Shown piece by piece: positions 1,838-11,930 of a stretch of DNA of 33,457 nucleotides (within the stretch, counting starts at the first letter, position 1; every line of letters begins with the position of its first letter). The stretch comes from an uncultured Bacteroidota bacterium (GTDB taxonomy: Bacteria; Bacteroidota; Bacteroidia; Chitinophagales; LD1), in the NCBI GenBank assembly GCA_903861145.1, contig CAIOTH010000073.1, positions 1 to 33,457 on the forward strand. The letters run 5' to 3'. The notes beneath the pieces are model-generated. The model did not search any database. It was not told where the DNA came from and saw only the letters and a list, made by a program, of their open reading frames with translations. The translations under genes were made by a program, and so were the position numbers.

Positions 1838-3337
1838 GTGAAGCCTCTGTTTAAAGTTTTCCTCGCTCTATTACCGTTTGTCGCCTCTGCACAAAATTGG
1901 GAGATATTCAATTCGTACGATCATTATAATTACCAGCAGGCCTCAGCCCCACTTATAAATAGCGTTTGCTTTGCAGATTCGTTTAAAGTATTGAATGGTG
2001 ATACTATCTATTTTGTGAATAGAATTGTGGAGCGAAATAACATAAACAATACGGGCCAGCATGACACGGCACAACTAAACCGGTGGCAATTTTTGCAAAG
2101 AGAAATACGGCGTAAATCCAGCGGATGGTACGTTCTGTTTAATCCTGGTTCTATGGTTATAGATCCCCATGCTGCAATTGGGTATAGTTGGCTATATGAC
2201 ACTACCAGAAATATTACAGCCACTGTAACAGCCGTTGATACAATTACGGTATTTGGATTACCGGATTCTGCCAAATACATAACCCTTAGCAACGGAGGTG
2301 GATCGATATTGCTCACACGGTCTTATGGAATTTTGATATTCCCCTCGGACACCTCCGATCACTTACAACCTGACACCGGCGATTTTTTGTTACGAGGTAT
2401 TCAAACGCGCAACATTGGGGAGCATGTTTTAGCATTCAACGACATTTATAATTTTAACGTAGGAGATATTTTTGTTTATACCTTACTTTATGTTGAAAGT
2501 GCCTACACAACAACTACTACATGGAAATATAGAATTATCGATAAGCAGGTTTTTGCGGATTCCATCAAATATATGATACGCAGTATTTCTTCTTCGCAAA
2601 CCAATGACCCCAATAATGACCGACCGGTGATAACGGTTGATACAGAATATTTGTTTTTCGATAACACGCCAACAGATTTATCTAACGCTTACCCGGGTGA
2701 ATTTACAAAGTTTGTTGACCTGTATAATAATGGCAACTATAGTCCGGCAACGGGAGAGTATGACGAACCTTATTATTCTATGGCATCGTACGTTAGAGAT
2801 GATGTTTATGGCGTTCACTGTAAAAAACTGGGTGTCAATAATTATTTCGGAATGTACGATTCCATCCAAACCGCCCAAATGATAAGTGGTGTGTCAAACG
2901 GAGGATGGTTATTCCCTTCGTATTATTGTACGATTTGCGAAGGACTTGGACATGTTCACTGGGAGTCTTCGGCCTTCGAAGAATATTATTCGTCAATTGA
3001 ACTAAAGGGTTATACCAAAAACGGAAATACTTACGGAAGCGTTCCATCCGACGGTGATTTAACTGGAATAGCCGGTCCATCGAGCCAAGAACCTTCATTT
3101 AGCGTCTATCCAAACATTATTACGGACAAGCTACTCATTCATATGAAATCGCTACCCGGATATGCCGCATACAATTTTACTCTATTTGACTTAACCGGCA
3201 GGCAGTTATTGGTTGAACCTTTAGAGCACTCAACTTCATCTATTGATTGTAGCTATCTTGCTACTGCAATGTATTTATGGAAAGTAAGAGACGAAAGTGG
3301 CAATGTAGTGGGTGCCGGTAAAATTATCAAGCAGTAG
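1838..3337 (+). CDS. Secreted protein with T9SS type A sorting domain
   Basis: The 499-residue product starts at a GTG: the signal peptide begins immediately (KPLFKVFLALLPFVASA, cleavage before QNWEIF) and no ATG lies upstream in frame. The middle (about 20-410) is beta-rich, Tyr/Asp/Thr-rich and matches nothing I recognise. The last 80 residues are a Por secretion-system type A sorting domain: FSVYPNIITDKLLIH, FTLFDLTGRQLL, then YLATAMYLWKVRDESGNVV and a closing KIIKQ. The protein should cross the outer membrane by the type IX system and be surface-anchored or released. Function of the cargo part is unknown. It stands alone, with a non-coding stretch of 770 bp behind it. Confidence 0.85.
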   Translation: MKPLFKVFLALLPFVASAQNWEIFNSYDHYNYQQASAPLINSVCFADSFKVLNGDTIYFVNRIVERNNINNTGQHDTAQLNRWQFLQREIRRKSSGWYVLFNPGSMVIDPHAAIGYSWLYDTTRNITATVTAVDTITVFGLPDSAKYITLSNGGGSILLTRSYGILIFPSDTSDHLQPDTGDFLLRGIQTRNIGEHVLAFNDIYNFNVGDIFVYTLLYVESAYTTTTTWKYRIIDKQVFADSIKYMIRSISSSQTNDPNNDRPVITVDTEYLFFDNTPTDLSNAYPGEFTKFVDLYNNGNYSPATGEYDEPYYSMASYVRDDVYGVHCKKLGVNNYFGMYDSIQTAQMISGVSNGGWLFPSYYCTICEGLGHVHWESSAFEEYYSSIELKGYTKNGNTYGSVPSDGDLTGIAGPSSQEPSFSVYPNIITDKLLIHMKSLPGYAAYNFTLFDLTGRQLLVEPLEHSTSSIDCSYLATAMYLWKVRDESGNVVGAGKIIKQ

Positions 3338-4106: not shown

Positions 4107-4679
4107 TTGAGCGAAAACGAACTTATAGCGCTTTTAAAACAAGGCGACAGGAGCGCATTTGATTATTTGGTTACCAACCACCAGGTACGCATATATAATG
4201 CCTGTTTGGGCGTGTTGCGTAGTCAGGAAGATGCAGAGGACGTAACGCAAGAGGTTTTTGTAGAAATATACCGCTCAATCAATAGCTTTAAAGAAGAGGC
4301 AAAGCTTTCAACCTGGATGTATAGGATTGCCATGACCAAATCGCTTGATTTTTTGCGTGGAAAGAAAAGAAAGAAACGGTTCGCTTTTATGAAACCATTG
4401 TTTGGGGAAGATAATGCGCCGAGATATGATCCACCTGATTTTGTTCACCCCGGAGTTCAACTCGAAAACAAGGAAACTGCCGCACAATTGTTTAAGGCGA
4501 TTGCTGAATTACCGGAAAATCAAAAGGTTGCCTTTACGCTTAACAAAATTGAGGGACTTAGTTACCAGGAAATAAGCGAGATTATGGAAACAACGGTGCC
4601 ATCTGTAGAGTCGTTGTTATTTAGAGCAAGACAAAATCTTAAAAACCTGTTGAGCGAATATTACAATAGCAATTTCTAG
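4107..4679 (+). CDS. ECF-type RNA polymerase sigma factor
   Basis: 190 residues with the two ECF regions. Sigma-2 spans about 18-88 (DAEDVTQEVFVEIYRSI, then KLSTWMYRIAMTKSLDFLR). A basic/aromatic linker follows, and sigma-4 spans about 128-185 (LPENQKVAFTLNKIEGLSYQEI, SVESLLFRARQNLK). The start is TTG at 4107, the only start codon after an in-frame TAA at 4098. It heads a run of five same-strand genes (4107-7408); the small membrane protein next door is its probable anti-sigma factor. ECF factors of this kind are held at the membrane until an envelope signal releases them, and usually drive their own operon, here the Spy-like, MbnP-like and di-haem peroxidase genes. Confidence 0.93.
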   Translation: MSENELIALLKQGDRSAFDYLVTNHQVRIYNACLGVLRSQEDAEDVTQEVFVEIYRSINSFKEEAKLSTWMYRIAMTKSLDFLRGKKRKKRFAFMKPLFGEDNAPRYDPPDFVHPGVQLENKETAAQLFKAIAELPENQKVAFTLNKIEGLSYQEISEIMETTVPSVESLLFRARQNLKNLLSEYYNSNF

Positions 4680-4714
4680 CGCAAGTTATTTAACCCAAAA
4701 GCATCTAACTAAAT

Positions 4715-5026
4715 ATGGAAGGCGAAAAAGATAAATGGATTGAAAGAACGCTAAACAGCCTGGAGGGCATTCAACCAGCTGTTCCATCGACAGATATGCA
4801 TGGCCGCATTATGCAGCGGTTGCAGGCTGAGCGGTTCAGAATTGTACCCGATAAAGTTAAGCCAGCCACTATTTATAGAGCAGCAGCGGCTATTTTATTG
4901 ATTATGGCGCTTAACATTTTTACCTGCACCATGTTTTCGAAAAACGTGACTGAGAAGAAGGGATTGCAAAGTTTTGCAAAAGAATACTCCATATCGGGCG
5001 GTAGCGAGAGCCTGTTAAATATTTAA
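4715..5026 (+). CDS. Small membrane-anchored protein, probable anti-sigma factor
   Basis: 103 residues. A charged cytoplasmic N-terminus (KDKWIERTLNSLEGIQPAVPS, then MHGRIMQRLQAERF) resembles the short sigma-binding helices of Bacteroidota anti-sigma proteins. One membrane span follows at about 53-74 (IYRAAAAILLIMALNIFTC), then a short periplasmic tail. No zinc HxxxCxxC motif is present, so it would be a non-ZAS type. The assignment rests on position, 35 bp after an ECF sigma gene and 3 bp before a periplasmic sensor-like gene, together with topology. Without the neighbour it would be called hypothetical. Confidence 0.7.
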   Translation: MEGEKDKWIERTLNSLEGIQPAVPSTDMHGRIMQRLQAERFRIVPDKVKPATIYRAAAAILLIMALNIFTCTMFSKNVTEKKGLQSFAKEYSISGGSESLLNI

Positions 5027-5029
5027 GCC

Positions 5030-5578
5030 ATGAAACCGGTGGGAAAACAAACGCTTTTGACAATTTTGGTGCTGGTACTGGTAGCTCTAAATATAGGGCT
5101 GGTAACTTTTATGTGGTACACCCAACGCCCCAACAACGGACCAGGCGGACCCGAAACGGCGAATTTTTTGATGCGCGAATTACGCCTTAGCAAAGAGCAG
5201 GAAGGTAAATACCACGACTTGCAGAAGCAATTTAACGATAGCCTTGAACCTATTAGAGAAAGAGAACGGCAAATACACGATCGTTTTTTTGGCATGATGC
5301 ACGCGGTAAATCCTGATTCTGTATTGGTAACTGCAACTATTGATACCATGGGGCATATACGCGCTGAAATTGAATATTTAACCTTTGCTCATTTCAGGCA
5401 GGTGCGGGCTTTATGCAATGCTGAACAACAACAAAAGTTTGACAACATAATAAGTGATGCCATGCGGCGTATGGGGCCACGGCCGCAAGGGCCGCGTGGG
5501 CCGGGAAAAGAGCAACACAGGCCCCAAGGCCCGCAGGAAGGGCAAGGAGGCCCACCGGATGGCCCGCCGCCTCATTAA
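5030..5578 (+). CDS. Spy/CpxP-like periplasmic protein (heavy-metal sensor family)
   Basis: 182 residues: an N-terminal membrane anchor or uncleaved signal (about 8-30), then a helical periplasmic domain (about 42-147) with the family's LRLSKEQEGKYHDLQKQF and LTFAHFRQVRALCNAEQQQKF segments. These are the two LTxxQ-type repeats of the CpxP/Spy/CnrR-like Metal_resist group, degenerate here. The last 35 residues are unusual: almost only Gly, Pro, Gln and Arg, collagen-like (RPQGPRGPG, GPPDGPPPH). Relatives act as periplasmic chaperones or as sensors that restrain an ECF sigma/anti-sigma pair, as CnrX does. It starts 3 bp after the anti-sigma stop codon, so the three genes very likely work together. 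Confidence 0.8.
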   Translation: MKPVGKQTLLTILVLVLVALNIGLVTFMWYTQRPNNGPGGPETANFLMRELRLSKEQEGKYHDLQKQFNDSLEPIRERERQIHDRFFGMMHAVNPDSVLVTATIDTMGHIRAEIEYLTFAHFRQVRALCNAEQQQKFDNIISDAMRRMGPRPQGPRGPGKEQHRPQGPQEGQGGPPDGPPPH

Positions 5579-5615
5579 ATGTTTGCCTACCTCAATAATT
5601 AATTAGCTTAGCCCT

Positions 5616-6365
5616 ATGAGCCAGGTAAAATTAGTGATGCGTTTTGTGATATGCATTGCGGTGCTTAGTACCGCAGGTTCGTTTACAGAACCTGTGGAAA
5701 AGGCCAAGCTGAACATAAGAATTGAACATTTTGCAGGGCCGCAACGCTTAAGCCTGGATTCGGTTGAGTATAAAAACGCTTTGGGACAAACGTTTACAGT
5801 TTCACGATTCAGGTATTACCTCAGCAATGTTATTCTGAAAAACACAGATGGTGCCGAGTTTCAATCGCCCGATTATTTTTTGGTTGACGAGGCTGAACCT
5901 GATTCAAAATTGATAACAATTAAAGGTATACCTGTTGGCAATTACAGTTCCATTTCGTTTACTATCGGGGTTGATAGCTTGCACAATTGCAGCGGCGCAC
6001 AAAGCGGCGCGCTTGACCCTGTTAATGGCATGTTTTGGACATGGAGCACCGGATACATTTTTTTAAAACTAGAGGGACACGCCGATGCCTCTACGTCGCC
6101 CGGACATATTTTTGAATATCATATTGGCGGATATGCAGCACCCAATAATTGCATTAGAAGGGTTACGTTGAATTTCAAAAAAAAGGGGATCGGCATTGCC
6201 AATGATAAAACGGATGAGTTACCCCTTAAGGCTGATATTTTGGAAATCTTCAAACCCCCGACTAACATTGATTTTTCGAAACTCTCATCAGTAACCGATT
6301 TCCATAATGCCACCACTATTGCCAATAATTATGAAGACATGTTTACAATAAATGCTGATGAATGA
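5616..6365 (+). CDS. MbnP-family copper-binding protein
   Basis: 249 residues with an N-terminal signal (about 1-22). The MbnP core is recognisable: LDPVNGMFWTWSTGYIFLKLEG, with tryptophans 141 and 143, followed by FEYHIGGY. Other conserved-looking residues are His123 and Cys125 (SLHNCSG) and Cys179 (NNCIRR), the cysteines possibly a disulfide. In characterised MbnP proteins a partner di-haem enzyme oxidises a tryptophan to kynurenine, which then helps bind copper. The partner gene follows with an ATGA overlap, so the two are translationally coupled. Which tryptophan is modified here, and whether copper is bound, is inference. Confidence 0.85.
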   Translation: MSQVKLVMRFVICIAVLSTAGSFTEPVEKAKLNIRIEHFAGPQRLSLDSVEYKNALGQTFTVSRFRYYLSNVILKNTDGAEFQSPDYFLVDEAEPDSKLITIKGIPVGNYSSISFTIGVDSLHNCSGAQSGALDPVNGMFWTWSTGYIFLKLEGHADASTSPGHIFEYHIGGYAAPNNCIRRVTLNFKKKGIGIANDKTDELPLKADILEIFKPPTNIDFSKLSSVTDFHNATTIANNYEDMFTINADE

Positions 6366-7408
6366 AACTGAAGTTTGTTTATCTTTTCTTTTTTGGAATG
6401 GCGCTTTACCTTGGGTTAAATAGTTTTGTTGAAAACAATCCTTACTTTATAATTACCACAAAAGATGTTGAGGTAAAAGTGCCGGCCGGTTTTCCCAAAC
6501 CGGTTTACGATTTTAAGGAGAATAAAGTAACCCCGGAGGGCTTTGTATTAGGCCGTAAGCTTTTTTACGACCCAATTCTCTCGGCTGATAGTTCGGTAAG
6601 CTGCGCATTTTGCCACCAGCGTATTGCCGCCTTTGCGCATATTGATCACACGTTAAGCCACGGCATAAACGGATTGATAGGTAACCGAAATGTGCCCCCA
6701 TTGCAAAACCTGATTTGGCAACAAAATTTTATGTGGGATGGAGCTATTAACCATCTGGAAGTTCAACCATTGGCACCGTTAACCAACAGCCAGGAAATGG
6801 GCGAGTCTTTAAAGCATACACTCGAAAAGTTACAGCGGAACAAAACTTATGTTGATGACTTCTACGCGGTCTTTAAAGATACCGCGATTACCAGCGAAAA
6901 CCTTCTAAAGGCTCTTGCTCAATTTACAAGCCTGATGATAAGCGCGAACTCAAAATTTGATAAATATCAACGCGGGGAGGAGGAATTTACAGAACACGAG
7001 TTAAGCGGTTTAAAGCTTTTTAGGGCTCATTGTGAAAACTGCCATAAGGAGCCTTTGTTTACGGATAATACTTTTCGCAACATTGGTATAAAACCTGACA
7101 CAGCCTTGCGTGATTCGGGTAGAATAAAACTTACCGGGGTGGTTGACGATTATATGAAATTTAAAGTGCCGGGGCTACGCAATGTGGCAATGACTTATCC
7201 ATACATGCACGATGGGCGGTTTAGAACTTTACAGCAAGTGCTTAAGCATTACGCCGACGGAGTTTTTTACACTAACTACGATAAGAGTATTGAAAAAAAT
7301 GTGGGTTTGACCAACCAGGAACAAAGCGATATTATAACTTTTTTAAAAACGCTTACCGATGAACAGTTTTTGCACGATCGAAGGTTTGCCGATCCGAATT
7401 TCAGGTAG
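6362..7408 (+). CDS. Di-haem cytochrome c peroxidase family (MbnH/MauG-like)
   Basis: 348 residues, signal-anchor at about 1-22, then two c-type haem sites: CAFCH (81-85) and CENCH (224-228). Family landmarks include GRKLFYDPILS, GNRNVPPLQNLIWQQNFMWDGA, VPGLRNVAMTYPYMHDGRF and a C-terminal HYADGV. Bacterial di-haem peroxidases reduce hydrogen peroxide; the MauG/MbnH branch instead uses peroxide to oxidise residues in a partner protein. The ATGA overlap with the MbnP gene favours the MbnH role, forming kynurenine in MbnP, over simple detoxification. It acts in the periplasm. Its stop codon lies inside the end of the opposing kinase gene (8-bp overlap), and no terminator is visible between them. 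Confidence 0.9.
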   Translation: MKLKFVYLFFFGMALYLGLNSFVENNPYFIITTKDVEVKVPAGFPKPVYDFKENKVTPEGFVLGRKLFYDPILSADSSVSCAFCHQRIAAFAHIDHTLSHGINGLIGNRNVPPLQNLIWQQNFMWDGAINHLEVQPLAPLTNSQEMGESLKHTLEKLQRNKTYVDDFYAVFKDTAITSENLLKALAQFTSLMISANSKFDKYQRGEEEFTEHELSGLKLFRAHCENCHKEPLFTDNTFRNIGIKPDTALRDSGRIKLTGVVDDYMKFKVPGLRNVAMTYPYMHDGRFRTLQQVLKHYADGVFYTNYDKSIEKNVGLTNQEQSDIITFLKTLTDEQFLHDRRFADPNFR

Positions 7409-9662
7409 CGTGAATATAGTCCGGCAATTCCACTTCCAATTGCTTAACGGCGGAATTGCAAACTGATTTTATGTATTCCATATCATGCATAATACCATTG
7501 CTTAAATCGGCCTCATTGCAATTTTCAATATGGCTTAAAGGAGTATCGAGTTTTTGCAATAACCCCATATAGCCAACCGTAGATTTCATACTGTGGGCAA
7601 TACTTCTAAGTGCTTTCAAGTCTTTGGCATGGTACGCAGTATTAAGTTCTCCCAACTCCTGCTGCACCTGCGAACAGAAAATATCTGCCAGTTCCTTTAC
7701 AAATAATTTGTTTCCACCCGAAATTTTTTCGACCTCTGTAAAATCTATTACGGATGAAGAATCGCCGGAAGCTTTCCTTGCCCCGCTTATTGCTAAATCA
7801 GCCCTTTCAATTTCCAAAAAGTTAAACAGCACCGCATAAAGTTCTTCCTCTTTAAATGGCTTTGTTATATAACCGTTCATACCGGCTTCGTTAATGCTAT
7901 CCAAATCGCCGTCAAAAGCATGGGCGGTAAGTGCAACTATTGGTACACTTAATTTCATTTCATCGCGGATAACCTTTGTAGCCTGATAGCCATCCATTTC
8001 AGGCATTTGGATGTCCATCAACACCAGTTTATAGTTGCCATCTTTAAGCATGTTGCAGGCCACACTACCATTAGGTGCAAAATCAAAATCAATGTTCCAC
8101 TTCTTTAAAATAAAGCCGGCCAATTTTTGGTTCACCGGGTTATCCTCAACAACCAATACTCTTCCCGACAAATGTTCTGATTCAGAAATGCCTTCTGAAA
8201 ACCCATCGGTGACATTTGATGGCTCGCCCGATTTGCCAAAAGGCAATTGATATTTAACCGTAAAAGCGAACTCAGTACCCTCGCCCTCAATGCTACTAAC
8301 GCGTATGCTTCCACCTTCAAGCTCAACCAAAGATTTTACAATAGAGAGGCCGAGACCAGTACCGGTATTTTTCCTGCCCGCATTGTTATCTACCTGCTCA
8401 AAGCGGTCAAAAATTTTAGACAGCTTATCCCGGGGGATGCCCAGCCCGGTATCTTTTACTTTAAACTCTAAAATTGCAGTATCATCCAGGGTTTCAATCG
8501 CTTTAATCCTCACCATTACGGCACCCCTCTCAGTAAACTTGATAGCATTGCCGGCCAGATTTACTAAAATCTGGTTAAGCCGGTTTGCATCGCCTACAAA
8601 CTTAAGCGGTACGGTTTCATCACACTTAAACTCGAGGCGCAGGTTGTTTTCTTTAGCGGTGTGTTCAAACAGCTTGCGCAGGTTTTCAAGTACATCATCA
8701 ATGCTAAACTCGTGAGGTTCGAGCTTCATCATACCTGCTTCAATTTTCGAAAAATCGAGTACGTCGTTTACTATAATCAACAGGTTTTCGGAGGCGTTTT
8801 TAATTGTTTGAACAAAATCAGCTTGTTCAGTATCCATTTTTGTTTTGGCCAAAAGATTTGTAAAGCCAACAATTGAGTTTAATGGCGTACGTATTTCGTG
8901 GCTCATGTTTGAGACAAACCGGGTTTTTAAAATGGCAGCTTTTTCCGAAACGTCTTTAGCCTTTTCAAGCTCCTCCATAATGGTAGCGCGGCGTTGCAAA
9001 TTCCACACCGTGGTTATCATAAATAAAAACCCGAGGAAAATGATTAACGCTGTTGCAACAAGAATAGTAACCCGCGTTTGGTGTGCAGCTTTATTGTAAG
9101 TTTTAGCCGAGGTTTCGAGCTCATGGTTTTCGAACTCCTTAATATTTCCGGCAATTAGCTCAATACTGTCGTTCAATACACTGGCTTTGCCCGTTTCAAT
9201 AAACTCGAGTGCAATATCCCTCCCTCCCAGTTGGTACAACTTTAAAATGTTATCGTTGAATCCTATTTTCCGCTCAATAAGGTTGCGCAGCAATATCATG
9301 TTGCGTTTTGCCTGCTCATCTGAAACCAAATCGGAAAATTGTTTGGTTAAAGCCAAAATTGCTTTTTTATCGTTTTTGGTATTCTTGATATAGCTACTAT
9401 CGTTGGTAAGCACATAATCGCGCACGTTGCTGTGCAACTCGCGCATTTGGCCAACCAGGTCGTCAAGGTGTTTTAACTCCTGGTTTTTTTGAATGCTTAA
9501 GAGGTTAAGGTTGCTTAGTGAACGAATACTTTTATAACTAAGTGCCGATATAACACAGGTTACAATCATAATGGCAATAGCCGATACCACTATGAAGCCC
9601 GTCATAGAGGCCACATTAACCGACTTAATTTTCCGCTCAAAAAGTCTTAGTATCTTTCGCAA
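7401..9662 (-). CDS. Hybrid sensor histidine kinase with REC and Hpt domains
   Basis: 753 residues if it starts at TTG 9662; the first ATG, at 9605, begins right at the first membrane helix, so the TTG, which keeps a basic cytoplasmic lead, seems better. Order: TM1 (22-44), a helical CHASE3-like periplasmic sensor (about 45-195), TM2 (198-220), HisKA with SHEIRTPLNS (His255), HATPase with N372, DTGLGI and GTGLGLS, REC (about 501-615; acidic pocket E506/D507, phospho-Asp550, Lys601), and Hpt with AHSMKSTVG (His690). All catalytic residues are present, so a full His-Asp-His relay is possible inside one protein. The phosphate must leave to another receiver; candidates lie at 10137 and 11499. Confidence 0.93.
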   Translation of the reverse strand: MRKILRLFERKIKSVNVASMTGFIVVSAIAIMIVTCVISALSYKSIRSLSNLNLLSIQKNQELKHLDDLVGQMRELHSNVRDYVLTNDSSYIKNTKNDKKAILALTKQFSDLVSDEQAKRNMILLRNLIERKIGFNDNILKLYQLGGRDIALEFIETGKASVLNDSIELIAGNIKEFENHELETSAKTYNKAAHQTRVTILVATALIIFLGFLFMITTVWNLQRRATIMEELEKAKDVSEKAAILKTRFVSNMSHEIRTPLNSIVGFTNLLAKTKMDTEQADFVQTIKNASENLLIIVNDVLDFSKIEAGMMKLEPHEFSIDDVLENLRKLFEHTAKENNLRLEFKCDETVPLKFVGDANRLNQILVNLAGNAIKFTERGAVMVRIKAIETLDDTAILEFKVKDTGLGIPRDKLSKIFDRFEQVDNNAGRKNTGTGLGLSIVKSLVELEGGSIRVSSIEGEGTEFAFTVKYQLPFGKSGEPSNVTDGFSEGISESEHLSGRVLVVEDNPVNQKLAGFILKKWNIDFDFAPNGSVACNMLKDGNYKLVLMDIQMPEMDGYQATKVIRDEMKLSVPIVALTAHAFDGDLDSINEAGMNGYITKPFKEEELYAVLFNFLEIERADLAISGARKASGDSSSVIDFTEVEKISGGNKLFVKELADIFCSQVQQELGELNTAYHAKDLKALRSIAHSMKSTVGYMGLLQKLDTPLSHIENCNEADLSNGIMHDMEYIKSVCNSAVKQLEVELPDYIHAT

Positions 9663-9720
9663 AGAGGAAGATTCAGTTTATAATAATAAAAAGCCGGAAT
9701 TCATCCACTGCCAATTATTA

Positions 9721-9728
9721 CAAAAGTA
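9721..9728 (-). promoter_or_regulatory. Possible -7 box of the hybrid kinase gene
   Basis: On the minus strand this reads TACTTTTG, matching TAnnTTTG, about 59 bp before the TTG start. No TTG sits 19 bp further upstream, so support is partial. Confidence 0.4.
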
Positions 9729-9821
9729 TGAATTATTGCTGGCTTTAGTGTCGCTAAAAATACGTTCAACGGAACTACACCATGAAGGCCGATATATCCT
9801 CAAAATGCGGAAATTTCCTCT

Positions 9822-9995
9822 CTAGGCTTTTATAAAAAGGTAGCTAACTATTACAGTCATTAAAATCAAAACCGTAATTAGTTTTACAAGAGCAAATTGC
9901 TGCTCAGGGGTGCGTTGCGAAAGTATGTTACGGTAGTCCTCTTTATAGGATTGAGGGCGCGCATGTATGTGCGAATTTGAATGTGAATGTTTCAT
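9822..9995 (-). CDS. 57-residue His-rich single-span membrane peptide
   Basis: ATG at 9995 to TAG at 9822. The product opens with a histidine/serine-rich stretch (MKHSHSNSHIHARP, four His in 11 residues), has a charged middle (SYKEDYRNILSQRTPEQQFA) and ends in one hydrophobic span (LITVLILMTVIVSYLFI) plus KA. Hydrophobicity, charge layout and clean boundaries suggest a real gene. It lies between a LytTR regulator and the hybrid kinase, all on the minus strand with gaps of 141 and 159 bp. The His cluster could bind a metal ion or simply be exposed. I know of no family, and the function is unknown. Confidence 0.6.
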   Translation of the reverse strand: MKHSHSNSHIHARPQSYKEDYRNILSQRTPEQQFALVKLITVLILMTVIVSYLFIKA

Positions 9996-10136
9996 GCTGC
10001 TGACATTTATAATGCAATAATACGAGCGCAGATAAAAACAGTTCGCTTTATTCGATGAAGCAAGGTATAAATTCGATGAGGTCGCAGTATTTTAAGACAG
10101 GAGAAATGATGTTTAATACAAACCAGAGAAAGAGGC

Positions 10137-10823
10137 TTAAAACAGATTTAACTTACTCATTAGCTGTTCTTTATAGGAGTCGGCAACGGGAATTGGCTTA
10201 CCATCAATGTATATCATACTATCTGTAACTGTGGCAATTTTTGAAATGGCCACAATGTACGAACGATGCACCCGCTGAAATTTGCCTGTTACCAGTTTTT
10301 CTTCAAGGGTTTTCATGGTAATATGTACTGTATATTTTGATGCTTTGGTTTGAATCATAGCATAGTCGCCAAGGGCCTGCACAAATAGTATTTCGTCGAA
10401 CATAATTTTTGTCCAGGCACCATCGCTCCGAACGAAGAAGAAATCTTTGGTTGTTGCGCCAATTGCCGAACTATCGAAAACCGCTTTTGCCCGCTCAACA
10501 GATTTGATAAACCTGGGCAACAAAACAGGTTTTACAAGGTAATCAACAACGCGCTGCTCGAACGCTTCAACGGCATAATCTCTTTTGGAAGTAGTGAGAA
10601 TAACAAGGGGGCAATTGCTAAGATGCTTTACCAGTTCAATACCTGTCATTTCGGGCATTTCAACATCCAGCAATATCAGGTCTACCTTTTCGCGGTCCAG
10701 AAAACTTACAGCTTCTGCCCCGCTTTGACACTCGCCTACATACTGCAAATATTCAACCTGTTCAACCAGGTTTTTCAATACCAGCCGGGCCATTTTATTA
10801 TCGTCAACTATAAGTGTGCGCAT
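10137..10823 (-). CDS. LytTR-family response regulator
   Basis: 228 residues. The receiver (about 1-115) has Asp7/Asp8, the phospho-acceptor Asp53 in LLDVEMPEMTG, and Lys98 in YLVKP. The LytTR DNA-binding domain (about 128-225) has FVRSDGAWTKI, the region around ALGDYAMIQTKASKYTVH, and FQRVHRSYIVAISKI, the typical 'RVHRSYIVN' site. Bacteroidota LytTR regulators usually pair with a LytS-type 7TM or 'His kinase' protein encoded next door; none is here, and the nearest kinase is the hybrid at 7401-9662. It binds direct repeats in promoters. It is the first gene of the minus-strand run, with 141 bp to the small His-rich gene downstream. Confidence 0.92.
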   Translation of the reverse strand: MRTLIVDDNKMARLVLKNLVEQVEYLQYVGECQSGAEAVSFLDREKVDLILLDVEMPEMTGIELVKHLSNCPLVILTTSKRDYAVEAFEQRVVDYLVKPVLLPRFIKSVERAKAVFDSSAIGATTKDFFFVRSDGAWTKIMFDEILFVQALGDYAMIQTKASKYTVHITMKTLEEKLVTGKFQRVHRSYIVAISKIATVTDSMIYIDGKPIPVADSYKEQLMSKLNLF

Positions 10824-11292
10824 AGCGATAAAAAGTATTCAAAAACCAAAATAACCACTGCTGGTTCTATGCCGGAAACAATTAGCATAAAGACTTACCC
10901 GTGGTTAAAATACACTTTTTTGCCGCATTTTAAAATCGAAACGCTGATTATAAACCGCAAAAATATTGGACTAAGAAAAGCCCTAATTCACCGAAATATT
11001 GCCACAAACCATCGAATAACTGCGCCTTGCGTTTTTTTCGGACGTAATATTATGCAGGCATTAAGAATATGTTTTTAAGCGAGCGTATAAAACCATAGGT
11101 GTTAACGTTTTGGCACTTATGATTTTGATATGGTTAGATAAAGAAAGATGATCAGGTAAAATTGTTAGGCTTGCTTGTGGCATCTATTTCTGTTTCGCTT
11201 ATTGCAAAATGGCCATGGTGAAAATATTGAGCTAATCAAGGATTTGGTTTAATAATCTACGGTTTCTCTCGGGGGAGGGGAATCGAATAAAG
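10824..11292. other. AT-rich gap between divergent signalling genes
   Basis: 469 bp without a credible gene. It must carry the promoter of the LytTR regulator (leftward). A minus-strand -7-like TATTTTTG occurs at 10965-10958 but has no matching upstream TTG. The right end turns abruptly G-rich (CGGGGGAGGGG, about 11270-11280), leading into the hairpins at 11293. Confidence 0.5.
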
Positions 11293-11322
11293 GGGCCCTT
11301 TATCCTATAAAGGGCCCTCTTT
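11293..11322 (+). terminator. Strong hairpin followed by a T-rich run
   Basis: GGGCCCTTTAT (11293-11303) and ATAAAGGGCCC (11307-11317) form a perfect 11-bp stem with a 3-base CCT loop, followed by TCTTTT. It looks like an intrinsic terminator for rightward transcription, yet no rightward gene lies upstream. It may therefore end a small RNA, or work as an attenuator in the leader of the receiver gene at 11499. Confidence 0.5.
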
Positions 11323-11332
11323 TAAAATTTTA

Positions 11333-11362
11333 AACTTCCAGGGATTTATGCTTCCGGAAGTT
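11333..11362 (+). promoter_or_regulatory. Inverted repeat in the receiver-gene leader
   Basis: AACTTCC (11333-11339) pairs with GGAAGTT (11356-11362). The right side also carries its own palindrome CTTCCGGAAG (11351-11360), so two alternative pairings exist. Confidence 0.4.
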
Positions 11363-11410
11363 CAATGTTATCGTTCTTTTTTCATAACCCGTGGTGGGGT
11401 AAATGGAAGA

Positions 11411-11437
11411 AAGGGGACCTTATTATAAGGCCCCCTT
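11411..11437 (+). promoter_or_regulatory. Second hairpin, related to the one at 11293
   Basis: AAGGGGACCTTAT (11411-11423) pairs with ATAAGGCCCCCTT (11425-11437) with a single A-C mismatch; the usable loop is a few bases of the AT-rich apex. The context GGGG-TAAATGGAAGAAAGGGG echoes GGGG-AATCGAATAAAGGGG before the first hairpin, about 120 bp upstream, suggesting a duplicated unit. Confidence 0.45.
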
Positions 11438-11479
11438 ATATTTAAAGCCATATACTTTAATCAGAAACGAATCGTTAAA

Positions 11480-11498
11480 GATATATCAGCGATATATC
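11480..11498. promoter_or_regulatory. Twin GATATATC palindromes abutting the start codon
   Basis: GATATATC (11480-11487), spacer AGC, GATATATC (11491-11498), ending directly at the ATG at 11499. Each copy is self-complementary. This could be a translational hairpin that hides the start or a binding site; the sequence alone does not decide. Confidence 0.45.
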
Positions 11499-11930
11499 AT
11501 GGATTCCAAACCATCTAAAACCGAAATTGAAATGCTTACTAAACAGTGTGCCCCAGCGCTGAAAAAAATATTATTGGTTGATGACGATAAAACGTTTATT
11601 CATTTAAACCGCGCAATGCTAAAATATAACGATGTTAATTGCCAGATAGATGAGTGCAGAAACGGGCAAGAGGCATTGGCTTATATTTCATGTACCAAAC
11701 AACTGCCTGATGTGATTTTGCTTGATATTGATATGCCGGTGATGAACGGCCTGGAATTTTTAGAAAAATTTGATGAACATGATAGCCGCGTTGAGCAGAC
11801 CAAGGTATTTGTGCTTTCTTCTTCTACAGAGCAGGACCGGGTGAAATCGCGCAGGTATAATTTTGTAAAAGGCTATTTTCAAAAGCCGCTGAGCGATTCG
11901 CACATTAAGGAGATACTTTCTCTATTCTAA
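11499..11930 (+). CDS. Single-domain response regulator (CheY-like)
   Basis: 143 residues from ATG 11499; the frame is open further upstream to 11403, but that part would be read through a hairpin and has no receiver homology. The receiver starts at KKILLVDDD (Asp28-30). Phospho-acceptor Asp76 is in LLDIDMPVMNGLEF, the Ser107-109 cluster is at the switch position in VFVLSSST, and Lys129 is in YFQKPL. There is no output domain, so it acts by protein contact or as a phosphate sink or shuttle. Such receivers commonly serve hybrid kinases that, like the one at 7401, end in an Hpt domain. Structured leader upstream; convergent with the peptidase gene, 6 bp apart. Confidence 0.9.
   Translation: MDSKPSKTEIEMLTKQCAPALKKILLVDDDKTFIHLNRAMLKYNDVNCQIDECRNGQEALAYISCTKQLPDVILLDIDMPVMNGLEFLEKFDEHDSRVEQTKVFVLSSSTEQDRVKSRRYNFVKGYFQKPLSDSHIKEILSLF

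Follow-up and report, generated by a model that had tools for sequence, protein, structure and literature searches.

Background

What controls MbnP and MbnH, a protein pair known mainly from methanobactin producers, when their genes lie outside such a cluster? The question is raised by a stretch of 33,457 nucleotides (nt) from an uncultured Bacteroidota bacterium (contig CAIOTH010000073.1), which we call the window. In it five genes on one strand follow each other in an apparent operon: an extracytoplasmic function (ECF) sigma factor, a short membrane protein, a sensor candidate, MbnP and MbnH. Judging from the sequences, this arrangement is real and conserved in many relatives. It is more than chance, since the same order is seen in 31 of the 78 MbnP loci compared and an element in the first gap is found far more often than in shuffled sequence.

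We consider it probable, with real room for doubt, that the operon is a metal-responsive switch of the CnrYXH type with the MbnP/MbnH pair as its output. In CnrYXH the sigma factor is set free once the sensor binds metal. Here the 103-amino-acid (aa) membrane protein would act as anti-sigma factor and tether the sigma factor to the membrane. The CnrX-like protein, anchored so that its helical domain faces the periplasm, would sense a metal, most likely copper, and free the sigma factor. The freed sigma factor would then transcribe the genes for the anti-sigma factor, sensor, MbnP and MbnH from the element at 4680-4708, and since the anti-sigma gene belongs to this unit the response would restrain itself by negative feedback. 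It probably also drives an unlinked YHYH gene, the product of which has a tail for type IX secretion. Trp141 of MbnP would be oxidised by MbnH, and the kynurenine so formed would complete a periplasmic copper site. This ties the pair to a dedicated sensor switch with a concrete promoter-like element, and both the signal and the regulon become testable.

The operon and its conservation

The original prediction described five same-strand genes with gaps of 35, 3, 37 and -4 bp, and the coordinates of the open reading frames (ORFs) bear this out. The families it named are found as well, by Pfam for the sigma factor, Metal_resist, MbnP and CCP_MauG, and by a profile of relatives for the anti-sigma candidate (Table 1). 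The sigma gene begins with TTG, and the sequence between this codon and the upstream stop holds no alternative in-frame start; its orthologs in relatives stand 5' of the anti-sigma and sensor genes. The anti-sigma candidate starts with some 52 residues, followed by a single hydrophobic stretch (by eye, about 53-75) and a short tail, and reaches an NCBIfam anti-sigma model only at 0.043. The sensor's LTXXQ match lies under its Pfam cut-off.

Table 1. Features of the sigma factor, sensor and MbnP/MbnH operon, in window coordinates
Feature	Position	Strand	Evidence and remarks
ECF-type sigma factor gene	4107..4679	+	TTG start; Sigma70_r2 2.2e-16, Sigma70_r4_2 4.7e-17 (Pfam)
ECF-type promoter-like element CGCAAGTTAT-N11-GCATCTAA	4680..4708	+	sigma/anti-sigma gap; ends 6 nt 5' of anti-sigma ATG
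Short anti-sigma factor candidate, 103 aa	4715..5026	+	no Pfam match; profile of relatives places it between sigma and sensor
CnrX-like membrane-anchored metal-sensor candidate	5030..5578	+	Metal_resist PF13801 2.6e-7
MbnP family protein	5616..6365	+	PF20243 6.7e-55; W141 codon 6036-6038, W143 codon 6042-6044, H169 codon 6120-6122
MbnH-like di-haem CCP/MauG-superfamily enzyme	6362..7408	+	CCP_MauG 8.4e-52; haem motifs C81AFCH85, C224ENCH228

Whether the order is conserved in Bacteroidota was asked of 78 loci, all recorded as members of that phylum. They were gathered by similarity to the window MbnP, so the sample is biased towards relatives of that protein; family profiles were built from first-pass matches and then run on all of them. 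MbnH is present in 76 (the exceptions are L079 and L086), and in L075 it precedes MbnP. In 31 loci MbnP has a sensor gene before it on its own strand, accompanied by an anti-sigma candidate in 30 and by a sigma gene in 28. Two of the three without a sigma match are L070, which meets a contig end, and L069, where multicopper-oxidase and thioredoxin-like genes precede the sensor. MbnP directly follows the sensor in 14 of the 31 (L037, L038, L091, L095, L096, L099, L100, L103, L104, L105, L108, L109, L113 and L114); L037 and L038 are apparently the assemblies G009 and G001 and should not be counted twice. In the other 17 at least one gene intervenes, and a YHYH gene is among the insertions every time. 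The adjacency of sensor and MbnP extends to distantly related loci of the class (L099, L104, L238 and L262).

MbnP and MbnH

The window MbnP scores 186.4 bits against PF20243, where the cut-off is 27. Its two tryptophans were correctly located by the original prediction, in FWTWSTGY, and their conservation is complete in the smaller set: W141, W143 and H169 are invariant in 56/56 MbnP sequences. In a wider set the WxW motif and H169 are kept in 82/88; the six that depart from this are one tandem copy in L055 and the five further MbnP proteins of the window's genome. The MbnP model (predicted local distance difference test score, pLDDT, 90.7) has six Foldseek matches below 1e-3, all of them to 7l6g, the MbnP of Methylosinus trichosporium (E 2e-9 to 5e-8; template modelling (TM) score by query 0.52-0.54), while searching the PDB by sequence gave no match for MbnP. 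Against the NCBIfam equivalog TIGR04052 it scores 42 bits where 140 are needed, so it is related to that family and not an equivalog by this model.

MbnH combines a CCP_MauG domain with two CxxCH haem motifs (residues 81-85 and 224-228). TIGR04039, the model for the MbnH family, is its best-scoring NCBIfam model at 203.3 bits, below the cut-off of 362.85. The nearest PDB entry by sequence is 6e1c, titled Di-heme enzyme, which we take to be the MbnH of M. trichosporium. Manesis is said to have reported in 2021 that the first Trp of the MbnP WxW motif is oxidised to kynurenine and that Cu(I) is bound.

The pair was predicted to stand alone, apart from methanobactin synthesis, and the genome agrees: the whole of it holds no match to MbnB_TglH_ChrH (PF05114), MbnA not having been searched for separately. 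We have therefore rejected a methanobactin cluster. No TonB receptor appears among the 18 window ORFs scanned with Pfam, which are not every ORF of the window, and that search did not extend to the rest of the genome.

The sensor

An alignment of 31 sensor sequences shows an N-terminal hydrophobic helix followed by a helical domain. The model (pLDDT 86.6) likewise has a helix at 6-31 and then a helical domain, consistent with an N-terminal anchor and a CnrX-like fold. CnrX chains take the first eight places among its Foldseek matches in the PDB (E 0.004-0.01, TM by target 0.74-0.82), and these are followed by CpxP, further CnrX chains, NccX, a VirG-like protein, ZraP and Spy. The label "Spy-like" in the original prediction thus holds by sequence profile, where Spy comes first, and fails by fold, where CnrX does; going by the model, we call the sensor CnrX-like.

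Within the family C129 is kept in 42/43 members, His68 in 38/43 and H121 in 33/43. The metal ligands of CnrX are H42, H46, E63, H119 and M123; E63 and M123 appear in the titles of the matched PDB entries. The Gly/Pro tail, which had been proposed to gate expression, is unlikely to do so because its length varies and is very short in many members, and on these grounds we dropped it as the sensing part.

The sensor module is much more widespread than the pair it precedes here. With a threshold of 1e-15, the 148 genomes sampled across the phylum give 48 sensor matches, spread over 46 of them. Reading 30 of these loci, with about 1.5 kb on each side, we find a sigma gene with the sensor in 30/30, an anti-sigma match in 26/30, and MbnP/MbnH after the sensor in 3/30, the window included. 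MbnP/MbnH would accordingly be one output of a general switch, and an exclusive tie of the module to MbnP is rejected. Sigma/CnrX-like modules in L237-L266, most of them with the gap element, precede mechanosensitive channels, a CusB/HlyD-type fusion protein and other genes.

The promoter-like element

The gap between sigma and anti-sigma genes contains most copies of a conserved, ECF-type promoter-like element, CGCAAGTTTT-N11-TCGTCTAA. It also stands ahead of many YHYH genes and, in some cases, of genes for CotH or multicopper oxidase. The search pattern, AAGTTTT-N11-TCGTCTAA, was seen by reading upstream regions, and the seed loci (L038, L100, L104 and L152-L154) are circular evidence. For scoring, duplicates were removed, up to 3 mismatches in 15 were allowed at a spacer of 11, and 50 first-order resamplings served as shuffles. 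On these terms the element precedes 20/41 anti-sigma genes (shuffle mean 0.04), 6/40 sigma genes (0.14) and 15/64 YHYH genes (0.32), and none of 43 sensor (0.06), 82 MbnP (0.18) or 80 MbnH genes (0.06). Spacers of 8, 9, 10, 12, 13 and 14 give 3, 3, 5, 7, 0 and 0 matches before anti-sigma genes and 2, 1, 5, 11, 1 and 2 before YHYH genes. Among other ORFs, with a spacer of 11 or 12, the CotH genes of L049, L056 and L067 and the multicopper oxidase of L057 match at 0-1 mismatch, and ORFs of L047, L053 and L103 at 2-3.

One test of the element is independent of its discovery. Sensor loci from across the phylum, none of them used to derive it, carry it in the sigma/anti-sigma gap in 19/29 cases at up to 3 mismatches, with the window excluded. 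The shuffle mean is 0.09 and the maximum 1, and when similar gaps are grouped the count is 13/22. Spacer 11 gives these 19, spacer 10 gives 9, spacer 12 gives 2, and the others 0-1. The element suggests that sensor-controlled sigma factors across the phylum form a group sharing one recognisable promoter.

The window's own copy differs by one mismatch from CGCAAGTTTT-N11-BCRTCTAA, and with as many as 3 mismatches allowed nothing else in the 33 kb matches; shuffles of the window average 0.17, and 17/100 give a match. A sigma-dependent promoter is predicted at this place, inside the operon, so MbnP/MbnH need not be transcribed together with the sigma gene. Scans for sigma-70 promoters and terminators gave results near the shuffle means.

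Scanning 30 genomes, we find six exact sites among the matches listed, all in the module (two before the sigma gene, three in the sigma/anti-sigma gap, one before YHYH); several of them are seed sites. Twelve sites among the matches listed have a single mismatch, and half of these lie at module-like genes: the window itself, a place just 3' of a sigma gene in G008, where the contig stops ahead of any anti-sigma gene, YHYH genes in G011 and G014, the region 5' of an additional sigma gene of G011, and that 5' of a multicopper-oxidase fragment in G016, which at 18.8 bits is slightly under the Pfam cut-off. The window's genome has two further sites of this quality, one inside a coding ORF (L228) and the other about 190 nt 5' of a 660-aa ORF (L227).

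The YHYH partner and the case for copper

A YHYH gene is present in 50/78 of the MbnP loci (profile E <1e-100), or in 49 with a trimmed profile at 1e-80, mostly between sensor and MbnP or 3' of MbnH. It is divergent from the sigma gene in three genomes (L152-L154) and lies on another contig in the window's genome and its two closest relatives (L147-L149). All three YHYH proteins scanned (L039, L104 and L147) have PF14240 and a type IX secretion C-terminal domain. A PDB profile search with YHYH gave seven matches, all over the C-terminal part only.

The single YHYH match in the window's genome, L147:9318-10565 on the minus strand of G000:C46, is unlinked to the operon and has both domains. Upstream of it stands CGCAAGTTTG-N12-GCGTCTAA, which resembles the gap element, its 12-nt spacer having been picked after the site was seen. 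By eye, the YHYH genes of two near relatives have CGCAAG...TCGTC-like versions, that of G001 with a poor -35 block.

The association also holds when the sensor is the starting point. A family sample of 30 genomes contains 23 sensor matches in 22 genomes; for 20 of these matches the contig also gives a strong match to YHYH, MbnP or both within about 3 kb. The remaining three are in G022, where the flanks read are short, in G010, where a partial YHYH match (40 bits) is above the Pfam cut-off, and in G011, as a second copy. Across the phylum YHYH is found at 1e-25 in 12/148 genomes. It lies about 2 kb downstream of the sensor in G041 and G074 and is unlinked in the window's genome, and in the other nine there is no sensor match close by.

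We lean towards copper because of the MbnP fold, the multicopper-oxidase genes found in 6/78 loci (one of them, in L057, with the element), the G016 fragment behind an element, and, in L082, an SCO1/SenC gene no more than about 2 kb from the pair. A broader proposal, which we advance only tentatively and with somewhat more doubt than belief, is a Bacteroidota copper-handling regulon in which a CnrX-type switch governs MbnP/MbnH, a secreted YHYH protein that would handle copper outside the cell, and in some species a multicopper oxidase. The link to the sensor switch gives the YHYH family a testable role.

CotH-type proteins are encoded inside the operon behind an element copy of their own in three loci (L049:2224-4476, L056:2260-4515 and L067:2238-4499). 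That of L049 has Pfam CotH, a lamin tail and a type IX tail, and the other two are similar by clustering.

Relation to known systems

CnrYXH has the gene order Y-X-H, and its output is a Ni/Co efflux pump. Like CnrYXH and NccYXH of Cupriavidus, the window has an ECF sigma factor, a short anti-sigma candidate with one hydrophobic stretch and a membrane-anchored sensor with the CnrX fold in one operon. It differs in its order of sigma, anti-sigma and sensor, in its MbnP/MbnH output and in the extra, near-invariant Cys of its sensor family. CnrY is described as a class II anti-sigma factor in PMC7406223, and the size and single hydrophobic stretch of the 103-aa protein fit a CnrY-like candidate of this class.

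The methanobactin operons of Methylosinus share with the window the pair of a WxW MbnP and a di-haem MbnH, and the window MbnP model matches the Methylosinus structure. They differ in that the window's genome lacks an MbnB-family enzyme and its regulation appears CnrX-like; the Methylosinus clusters have FecIR-like regulators, MbnI and MbnR, with a TonB receptor, according to PMC3621798. The same paper places MbnP/MbnH pairs far beyond methanobactin producers, defines them by TIGR04039 and TIGR04052, and makes a Trp-derived kynurenine part of the copper site of MopE. The MopE/SACCP and CorA/CorB systems of methanotrophs resemble the window, by description, in having a di-haem peroxidase beside a partner protein, whereas the passages on MopE and CorA in that paper describe no ECF module. 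In the literature searched, which does not cover the main MbnH/MbnP and ECF reclassification papers, no publication connects MbnP/MbnH with a CnrX-like module or MbnP with YHYH. What is new here is the conserved gap element and the YHYH partner in MbnP loci.

Weighing the readings

A number of results count against a copper switch acting on this pair. No Foldseek match of the sensor reaches below 1e-3, and its sequence profile, run against the PDB, puts Spy (1e-5) ahead of NccX (0.0067) and CnrX (0.12 and weaker). In a weak HMMER alignment (E 0.62) one CnrX histidine falls opposite H121, the sole ligand position kept, and the consensus His68 is Phe in the window sensor and Leu in L037 and L038; the metal may thus be a different one, or the site may be weakened. 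The window proteins score below the NCBIfam cut-offs of MbnP_like_WxW and MXAN_0977_Heme2. Within the flanks read, 27/30 phylum loci have no MbnP after the sensor; 47/78 MbnP loci have no visible sensor gene, although just 9 of the 47 have less than 3 kb upstream, and L096 has no sigma match despite about 3.8 kb of upstream sequence. As for the element, the window sigma gene has no good copy upstream (7 mismatches), five of the six multicopper-oxidase genes have none directly upstream, and the 6/416 other ORFs with a match are not clearly above chance (shuffle mean 0.98, maximum 6). At 2 mismatches the genome scan has no specificity, its counts being no higher than those of a reversed-pattern control. 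The window's genome has no match to Cu-oxidase_3 (PF07732).

Some of these results would suit a switch that senses another envelope stress, be it another metal, misfolding or redox, with MbnP/MbnH merely among its outputs. Spy and CpxP sense stress of this kind, and Spy leads the profile search; elsewhere the genes that follow the module include those for mechanosensitive channels and an efflux-type membrane-fusion protein, and the near-invariant Cys129 could be a redox sensor. We think this unlikely, though it deserves to be taken seriously, as CnrX leads the fold search and multicopper oxidases and SCO1 are among the neighbours in some MbnP/MbnH loci. It could also be argued that the sigma module and the pair are separate, adjoining units, the pair being transcribed by read-through or from a housekeeping promoter, given the loci whose flanks have no sensor gene and the 82 regions before MbnP that have no element. 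The recurrence of the adjacency in distant loci, the 4-bp overlap of MbnP and MbnH, the 37-bp gap before MbnP and the YHYH gene among every set of inserted genes make this very improbable. The gap element might instead be a translational or RNA element, since it ends so near the window ATG and begins at -32 in many relatives and at -26 to -38 in most that match; if it is a promoter, the anti-sigma mRNA would be leaderless or nearly so. Against this, the same two blocks occur before unrelated genes (YHYH, CotH in three loci, one multicopper oxidase), where they mostly begin 46-72 nt upstream, and Rfam has no match in the window, so we hold this explanation to be improbable. The metal-responsive switch of the CnrYXH type is the reading we keep.

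Other genes

The gene 3' of MbnH is convergent (7401-9662, minus strand). Upstream of the operon, the gene at 1838-3337 encodes a protein of 499 aa in which a type IX secretion tail is the only domain recognised by Pfam. The five MbnP paralogs of the genome (L115:6921-7679, 9683-10471 and 10962-11744; L116:6132-6860; L117:650-1405) all lack the full pair of WxW tryptophans, the L116 copy keeping the first and not the second. An MbnH-like gene directly follows the L116 paralog, and L115 has another at a distance of a few kb. Near MbnP genes there are also genes for small proteins that share a CNGxCxLxKQLKKA motif (L055:3058-3489, L115:12788-13156 and relatives by clustering, e.g. L082:5399-5770). 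The L055 protein has no Pfam match, and it is possible that these are copper-related membrane proteins.

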